From the NCBI GenBank assembly GCA_004296455.1, contig AP018280.1, forward strand, positions 1,178,001 to 1,242,000: a stretch of 64,000 nt of DNA, given 5' to 3'. The position numbers and the translations under genes were made by a program. This document shows positions 3,550 through 4,998 of the stretch, one piece after another. The number at the start of each line of letters is the position of its first letter. The stretch's first letter is position 1. Source of the DNA: Calothrix sp. NIES-4101. Lineage in GTDB: Bacteria > Cyanobacteriota > Cyanobacteriia > Cyanobacteriales > Nostocaceae. The notes beneath the pieces are model-generated. The model was given only the letters and a program-made list of their open reading frames with translations, had not been told where the DNA came from and did no database searches.

Positions 3550-4998
3550 CTACTTATCCTTACGTACTGGAAGCGGAGTTTCCAAAACTTCCATGAGTAA
3601 TTCCAAGCGAGATGGACGAGAAAGCAAGGGTACAAGGTTGGGTAAGGAGTAGTAGTCGCCTGCAAATGTGAAGGTTTCTACGGGTGCTTGTACTTCCTTC
3701 AATTTGCGCTCTACATAGTCGCACCACTGCCCAACGCGAACAATAATGACATTAGGTTCTACATTCATGTCGCGTTTGTAGGCTGCATAAGCATCGTGGA
3801 AGTAAGGATTGGTGTTATCACCTTCGTCAGTGACGATAATGATTTGTTCTACCACTTGCCGACGTTTACGCATTACATCCAATGCTGCACCAATACTGGT
3901 TCCACCGTTGGGAAAGATATGCTGGAAGGCTTTTTCCCAGTCAGTCATTTCCGTTCCTTGGGCTTTCACTGGGTAAGCGATAGTGTCAAAGGCGTAAACA
4001 AACAAATCAGCTTCCGTAATCCCGGAAATCAAAGCAGCAATTTGCTTACCAACTTCAATCGCCACATTCATACTTCCTGACTTGTCCACCAATAAAGCCG
4101 TGGACTTTTTGATGCTACCGCGCTTTTTGATTTGGGTGTTGGCGATTTTTTCCAACTGGGCAGCAGTTTCCGCATCTACTTGGGTGACATTGGCAGCGAC
4201 ATTTGCCTTAAATGCCGAAACGCGATCGCTTTTTGCTGCTTCCCGCAATTTCTCATCAATCAAAGCTTTGACTTCTGGGTGTTCCATTGCACCCCGTTCT
4301 TTGAGAGATTTGAGGTTGTTGATAACTTCCTGCGAAGACATGGAGTTAATCAAGGCGACCAAAACTACTGGTGTTAATTGTCTGACAGCACCTACGGCAA
4401 TTGTGTAGGGTATATTGTATTCAACAATTAAAGTAGCTTGTTCTGCGGGAGTGGCAGCTTTTGCTAATTGCTTGAGGATGTATGCAAGACTACCTTCAGG
4501 AGGCTTATCTTTGAATAACACCGCATCTGCACGCATACTTGGCTTAATGTGCAAAGTTGCATAGAGGTGCTTCATTGCCTTACGTCCCCGTAAAGCTGCG
4601 CGATCGAAAAATTCAGCTTTTGCTTCGCGAGTTTGCAGATATTGACGTACTGCGGTACGTGCAGAACGAGGCACTTTACCCCGTTGCTGCTTCATAAAGT
4701 CTACGATGCGGGCGACTTGGTAAGGTGGAAATTCCTGCAACATCACGAAACCCGCGTCTCGGTGTTCGGTTAAAGTGCTGGTGAGCAAATGTCCTAAAAA
4801 TACTTCTTTATGGTCACGGACATCGCCATTTTGGTTGTACCATACAGCTAAATGCCCGTAGAAAAGTGGGTCAAGTTCGACCATAATTTTGTGGAATTCG
4901 GCAACTTTTGCTAAGTCACGGTGCGGAGTTGTCAGCAAGCTATTGAGTAATTCCAAACGTAAATCGCGTTCTGCTGTATTCATTTTTAAAAGGCTCAT
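3550..4998 (-). CDS. Ro60/Rsr-like protein: alpha-helical repeat domain plus VWA domain
   Basis: The 482-aa protein has about 290 residues of alpha-helical, HEAT-like sequence followed by a VWA domain. All MIDAS elements are visible: DKSGS (about 305-309), the Thr of GGTS (about 367) and the Asp of VTDEGDN (about 391). A TROVE-like helical ring plus a C-terminal VWA domain is the layout of Ro60 and bacterial Rsr, which bind Y RNAs and misfolded RNA. Sequence similarity to known Ro proteins is not obvious by eye. The start at 4998 is supported by a GGAGGT ribosome site 7 bases upstream; an ATG at 5013 overlaps that site. It lies 66 bp downstream of RNA unit A in an all-minus-strand block with seven Y-RNA-like units, which is the main reason for the Ro assignment. 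Confidence 0.7.

Follow-up and report, generated by a model that had tools for sequence, protein, structure and literature searches.

The window analyzed here, i.e., the whole stretch of 64,000 nt from Calothrix sp. NIES-4101 (contig AP018280.1, positions 1,178,001 to 1,242,000), harbors on its minus strand a gene for a helical protein with a VWA domain, termed the ring protein in the following, and, upstream of it on the same strand, seven Y-type RNA units. The features are listed from the promoter onwards, with the basis of each assignment in brackets:

7800..7828, minus strand: promoter TTGACA-17-TAGTAT with a TrcR-type site, TGTAGTAT, over the -10 box (sequence)
7541..7741, minus strand: p66, ubiquitin-like (beta-grasp) protein ending in ...RPEAVYG before the stop codon (loci counts, fold, C-terminal Gly)
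7314..7457, minus strand: Y-type unit A, permuted (YrlA-topology) tRNA head (ARAGORN tRNA found only with the head doubled)
7165..7289, minus strand: Y-type unit B, colinear tRNA head, anticodon UGU (ARAGORN/Rfam tRNA, Y motif)
6970..7152, minus strand: Y-type unit C, permuted (YrlA-topology) tRNA head with a long acceptor loop (sequence and fold)
6750..6959, minus strand: Y-type unit D, head mimicking 23S rRNA H69-H71 with 28/33 nt identical (match to own 23S)
6581..6704, minus strand: Y-type unit E, colinear tRNA head, anticodon UAG (ARAGORN/Rfam tRNA, Y motif)
5601..5734, minus strand: Y-type unit F, colinear tRNA cloverleaf head, anticodon UCC (ARAGORN/Rfam tRNA of 64.5 bits inside a Y stem)
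5149..5586, minus strand: p145, array-associated protein (present in 17/36 loci)
5063..5140, minus strand: Y-type unit G, short hairpin head, 64 nt before the ATG, possible leader element (stem and motif)
5007..5011, minus strand: Shine-Dalgarno sequence GGAGG, 8 nt 5' of the ATG at 4998 (sequence)
3550..4998, minus strand: Ro60-type HEAT-ring plus VWA protein of 482 aa (AF2 model with pLDDT 86, Ro60/Rsr as the best 13 fold matches, homologues)
2656..3291, minus strand: second, shortened EF-Ts paralogue, downstream of the ring-protein gene (PF00889, E 6e-32)

The longest reading of the ring-protein ORF opens with an ATG at 5013, but the ATG at 4998 is the better start, as it agrees with the homologues and is preceded at 8 nt by GGAGG (5011-5007), the strong ribosome site already noticed in the initial annotation. 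Homologues sharing 67-93% identity were found in 36 loci, nearly all of them cyanobacterial, and since they recur in dozens of genomes, a chance ORF is excluded; among 386 sampled cyanobacterial genomes, 29 harbored the gene, with some of the copies being remnants. The AF2 model is all-helical up to about residue 291 and displays a VWA fold at about residues 297-447, in which the five MIDAS residues (DxSxS..T..D; D305, S307, S309, T367, and D391) are invariant among 30 homologues, so that the original description of about 290 helical residues followed by a VWA domain with a complete MIDAS is confirmed.

Comparison of the full-length model with known structures using Foldseek revealed exclusively Ro60/Rsr/TROVE structures among the best 13 matches (E 1.9e-12, TM 0.57-0.69), followed by a drop to isolated VWA domains, and VIA-align resulted in a Z-score of 22.1 over 437 residues to Xenopus Ro, compared with 14 for the best VWA-only match. 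At the profile level, hhalign aligned the ring protein with true cyanobacterial TROVE proteins over 416 columns (E 2.7e-11), and the best PDB match to the profile of the 30 homologues was a phage TROVE protein (E 0.035). The initial annotation had proposed a divergent relative of Ro60, which these results support: rather than differing from the TROVE ring, the predicted structure matched the Ro60/Rsr ring over its full length.

Searches with family profiles gave a different picture, as Pfam and NCBIfam revealed only weak VWA matches. The TROVE profile (PF05731) did not match the window protein in Pfam even at E 10, nor any of the 30 homologues, nor anything in the whole genome of the strain, and the Ro60 VWA profile PF25045 (vWA_Ro60) matched four of the 30 homologues with E-values down to 1.6e-5, the listed matches not including the window protein. 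Because PF05731 did not match, the ring protein is filed as a separate family with a Ro60 fold and not as a TROVE member. True TROVE genes were identified in 39 of the 386 cyanobacterial genomes, and some genomes carry both families, which must therefore be separate genes and not alternative names. The earlier impression, gained by eye, that the TROVE signature is absent thus holds for the profile, but not for its core motif: in true TROVE proteins the signature reads [HN]RDxLRLFHVKP, hhalign places a 12-residue stretch of the ring protein on it, and LHIKP aligns there with LSHIKP / LFHVKP, i.e., with the H187 motif of Ro60. Both H150 and the Pro of this LHxKP are invariant among the 30 homologues; in Ro60, H187 contacts Y RNA (PMC4030889). 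For K170/R174 of Ro60, hhalign leaves a gap, and the register to the basic residues of the ring protein is ambiguous.

Taken side by side with Ro60/Rsr (D. radiodurans Rsr, 2nvo; Xenopus Ro, 1yvp; Thermus phage phiLo Ro60, 9l5y), the ring protein shares the HEAT-type ring, with a MIDAS-bearing VWA domain closing it, the LxHxKP motif with the Y-RNA-contacting His, and Y RNAs encoded adjoining the gene. It differs in its low identity of about 16%, in being invisible to PF05731, in its shorter length (482 aa), and in forming its own clade, mostly of cyanobacteria and phages. Judged by the model, the ring protein is a sequence-divergent new family of the Ro60-type ring with putative RNA binding.

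The Y units were detected by their motif alone, which yielded 130 units from 36 loci, among them that of the window. Their fixed internal loop, CCYRA / RACUU, which we take to resemble the Ro60-binding loop of animal Y RNAs, is invariant at CC, A, and ACUU, partly since the detection motif requires these letters; in 124 of the 130 units, CC and the upper-stem motif lie at a distance of 12. The 9-bp lower stem was not used for detection, and among 119 distinct units it displayed 258 double-change cells versus 68 in shuffles, although relatedness inflates such counts; eight of nine pairs beat all 500 shuffles, and the excess of pairing where positions vary is large, reaching 97% versus 48% when shuffled at pair 7. 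The basal stem thus covaries and carries an unpaired C-containing internal loop, a feature of Y RNAs and YrlA. Y RNA families of Rfam 15 did not match the array units even at E up to 5, and tRNA models were the only Rfam matches above the gathering score. In most loci examined, a unit with a short head is the last one ahead of the ring-protein ORF, as is unit G in the window.

Protein and RNAs also occur together. A 25-nt Y motif pattern was found in 25 of the 386 cyanobacterial genomes (reversed control: 0), and 23 genomes contained both the motif and the ring protein (25 RNA-positive, 29 protein-positive). Genomes G125, G167, G203, and G385 possess damaged or fragmentary protein remnants and lack the RNA motif; in G278 and G328, Y-type units occur without the ring protein. 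The initial annotation had argued that domain order and adjacent Y RNAs fit a Ro-type protein, and the RNAs proved to be real, covarying, and co-inherited with the protein. We are highly confident that the locus encodes a Ro60-type ring with co-inherited Y-type RNAs.

Analysis of the heads with ARAGORN identified tRNAs directly in 65 of the 130 units and in 14 more when the head was doubled, indicating a permuted order, compared with 0/130 among shuffled and doubled controls. In unit C, the arms read from sequence and fold follow the order T arm, acceptor hairpin, D arm, anticodon arm, and the tRNA-like part of YrlA is likewise permuted, keeping D, T, and acceptor arms (PMC8394870). The permuted units share with YrlA these arms and a basal stem of the Ro-binding type; the array differs in comprising up to eight RNAs, in a stem without Rfam match, and in additionally displaying mimics of 23S rRNA and complete colinear cloverleaves whose anticodons vary. 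Among 58 distinct colinear units, 19 anticodons were present, with an entropy of 1.5-1.9 bits at positions 34-36, while U33 and a purine at position 37 (R37) were kept; changes between orthologous units fall mostly within the anticodon arm. This anticodon diversity could partly reflect relaxed constraint.

Apart from tRNA, the heads were also found to copy ribosomal RNA. The head of unit D matched positions 1903-1935 of the 23S rRNA of its own genome with 35.4 bits (maximum of 100 dinucleotide shuffles, 25.4), and six relatives match the same site; by itself, this putative mimic of 33 nt is modest and leans on the relatives. Altogether, 16 longer units of the window and its relatives match the genome's 23S rRNA at two sites only, all 16 scoring above all 100 dinucleotide shuffles: seven match H69-H71, and nine the GTPase-associated centre, mostly together with a match to the sarcin-ricin loop. 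In several relatives, the H69 helix, as read from the sequence, seems to be split open at the loop and to continue into the Y stem. No Y RNA heads copying ribosomal RNA were found in the literature searched; other papers on bacterial Y RNAs may have mentioned these loci before. Units with GTPase-centre and sarcin-ricin-loop matches were also seen standing alone at L019 8224, L022 9270, L025 8245, and L027 9534, each preceded at about 12-26 nt by a TrcR-type TGTAGTAT site of its own. A further class of heads, CAAGCCUGAGACC..AGCAGGC, occurs at L028 4132-4242, L029 1314-1421, L031 5776-5890, and L125 7956.

The pattern TTGACA-N13-17-TGTAGTAT has exactly two sites in the 7.6-Mb genome, one before p66 and one (G000:C2 10424-10452) before a tRNA array on the plasmid contig C2, and in this array (L118 2538-4307), tRNA-Trp and tRNA-Arg flank a Y unit. 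Anabaena possesses a tRNA array that inhibitors of translation induce; its TrcR operator is TGTAGTAT, placed over the -10 box, and rtcB is likewise repressed by TrcR (PMC10272220). The array of the window shares this placement on the -10 box with the trn operon (tRNA L-array) of Anabaena, but encodes parts of a Ro-type RNP instead of working tRNAs. Upstream of p66, the exact TGTAGTAT was present in only nine of 28 loci. Judging by gene order only, p66, the RNA array, and the ring-protein gene may form one transcript. Large tRNA arrays adjoin Y units in several genomes and on a Kovacikia plasmid. A contig labelled Acidobacteria (L026) carries a 72% identical protein, a 28-tRNA array, and Y units, which points to horizontal transfer or misbinning.

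The product of p66, which lies between the promoter and the Y array, was found in 22 of 36 loci, in all eight genomes checked, and also in phages. All 22 family members, including the window protein and those of phages, end in Gly before the stop codon, and the model revealed a beta-grasp fold, with nearly all VIA matches being ubiquitin-like and weak (Z 4-5.3). The gene accompanies the Ro-type gene elsewhere, e.g., at L129 5415-5609, L132 5078-5299, L133 3681-3878, and L134 7200-7394. Ring proteins of 46-49% identity are encoded on five viral contigs and in a phage genome of 595 kb, and three of these viral relatives also displayed p66 and Y-type units. Neighbors of the phage genes include head protease, tail lysin, ThiF, and JAB genes; the ThiF/E1-like and JAB desampylase-like genes lie near the Ro-type gene at L129 12275-13323, L130 9620-10845, and L131 4131-5368, and their presence suggests a possibly complete ubiquitin-like pathway in huge phages. 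Beside the cyanobacterial ring-protein loci, no E1 or JAB gene was seen.

Based on these findings, we propose with good confidence, as the explanation of the locus as a whole, a Ro60-type ring and Y RNAs with translation-mimic heads in a translation-stress cassette. We predict that the outer HEAT surface, around the invariant His of LHxKP, is the docking site for the basal stem of each Y RNA with its internal loop. This common stem would put a different head on display in each case, mimicking targets of the translation machinery, namely tRNAs whose anticodons have diversified and segments of the 23S rRNA. Ring, Y RNAs, and p66, under a promoter common only to the plasmid tRNA array, would constitute the cassette, and it seems reasonably likely that the ring and Y-RNA set belongs to a translation-stress response. 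Serving as decoys or baits, the heads might draw off nucleases or further agents that attack tRNAs and 23S rRNA, a possibility to which we would give somewhat less than an even chance; such a role has already been proposed for the tRNA-like domain of YrlA (PMC7790460). The ring would then store Y RNAs or handle damaged ones. A more far-reaching and doubtful version is a modular decoy system common to cyanobacteria and huge phages, in which the ring would show Y RNAs whose interchangeable heads copy toxin attack sites (anticodon loops, H69-H71, sarcin-ricin loop, GTPase centre), tagged or regulated by the ubiquitin-like protein and co-induced with a reserve tRNA array.

Known Ro/Y RNPs act as exonuclease adaptors and gates, which makes decoy action a leap. 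An adaptor similar to YrlA/RYPER, with ring and Y RNAs tethering an exoribonuclease or processing enzyme and the heads binding this enzyme or gating substrates for rRNA/tRNA quality control, would do without any decoy role. We regard this as unlikely, but it has to be taken seriously, as the permuted heads of the array show YrlA topology, the tRNA-like head of YrlA is where PNPase is bound in RYPER and where DusA/TruB introduce modifications (PMC8394870), and Rsr aids 23S maturation (PMC4030889). A single effector, however, leaves unexplained why heads differ within one locus (tRNA, H69-H71, GTPase centre plus sarcin-ricin loop) and why anticodons diversify with U33 and R37 kept. The beta-grasp fold and invariant C-terminal Gly of p66, together with the ThiF E1-like and JAB desampylase-like genes of the phage loci, would suit a scaffold for RNA modification or a sulfur-carrier/ubiquitin-like pathway, with p66 as a TtuB/Urm1-like carrier and the Ro RNP as its target or client; given that the p66 fold matches are weak (Z 4-5), that E1 and JAB genes were not seen at the cyanobacterial loci, and that the rRNA mimics are left unexplained, we consider it quite improbable.

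Location on plasmids, in huge phages, and adjoining tRNA arrays, as well as the joint loss of protein and RNAs, would also be expected of a selfish or mobile cassette, i.e., a horizontally moved tRNA-array element in which tRNA and rRNA fragments are degenerate cargo and the protein stabilizes just its own RNAs. Stems and heads nevertheless look selected, because covariation maintains the stems and U33/R37 are kept, and this origin appears rather improbable. That the protein is an unrelated VWA protein and the RNAs ordinary extra tRNA genes can hardly be believed: Pfam does find just a weak VWA domain and three array units are called as tRNA genes, but the Ro60 fold extends across the full length, and an ordinary tRNA cluster was rejected since covarying Y stems enclose the tRNAs, leaving them without a free 3' end, and their anticodons include UUA and CUA.

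The proposed Ro60-type ring with translation-mimic heads would add a second, profile-invisible family to the Ro60-type RNPs, with heads copying ribosomal RNA as well as tRNA, and would link Ro RNPs to a translation-stress regulon, tRNA arrays, and huge phages. The purpose of Y RNAs thereby becomes testable by asking whether the heads intercept enzymes attacking tRNA or rRNA.

As to the remaining neighborhood, a search for known defence systems with PADLOC gave no match, and p66, p145, and p216 received no name above cut-off from NCBIfam and Pfam. A full-length EF-Ts is encoded elsewhere in the genome, and the shortened one adjoins the ring-protein gene in five other loci. Another VWA protein (PF25106) is encoded near the locus at 1528-2361 of the window, and likewise in seven other loci.
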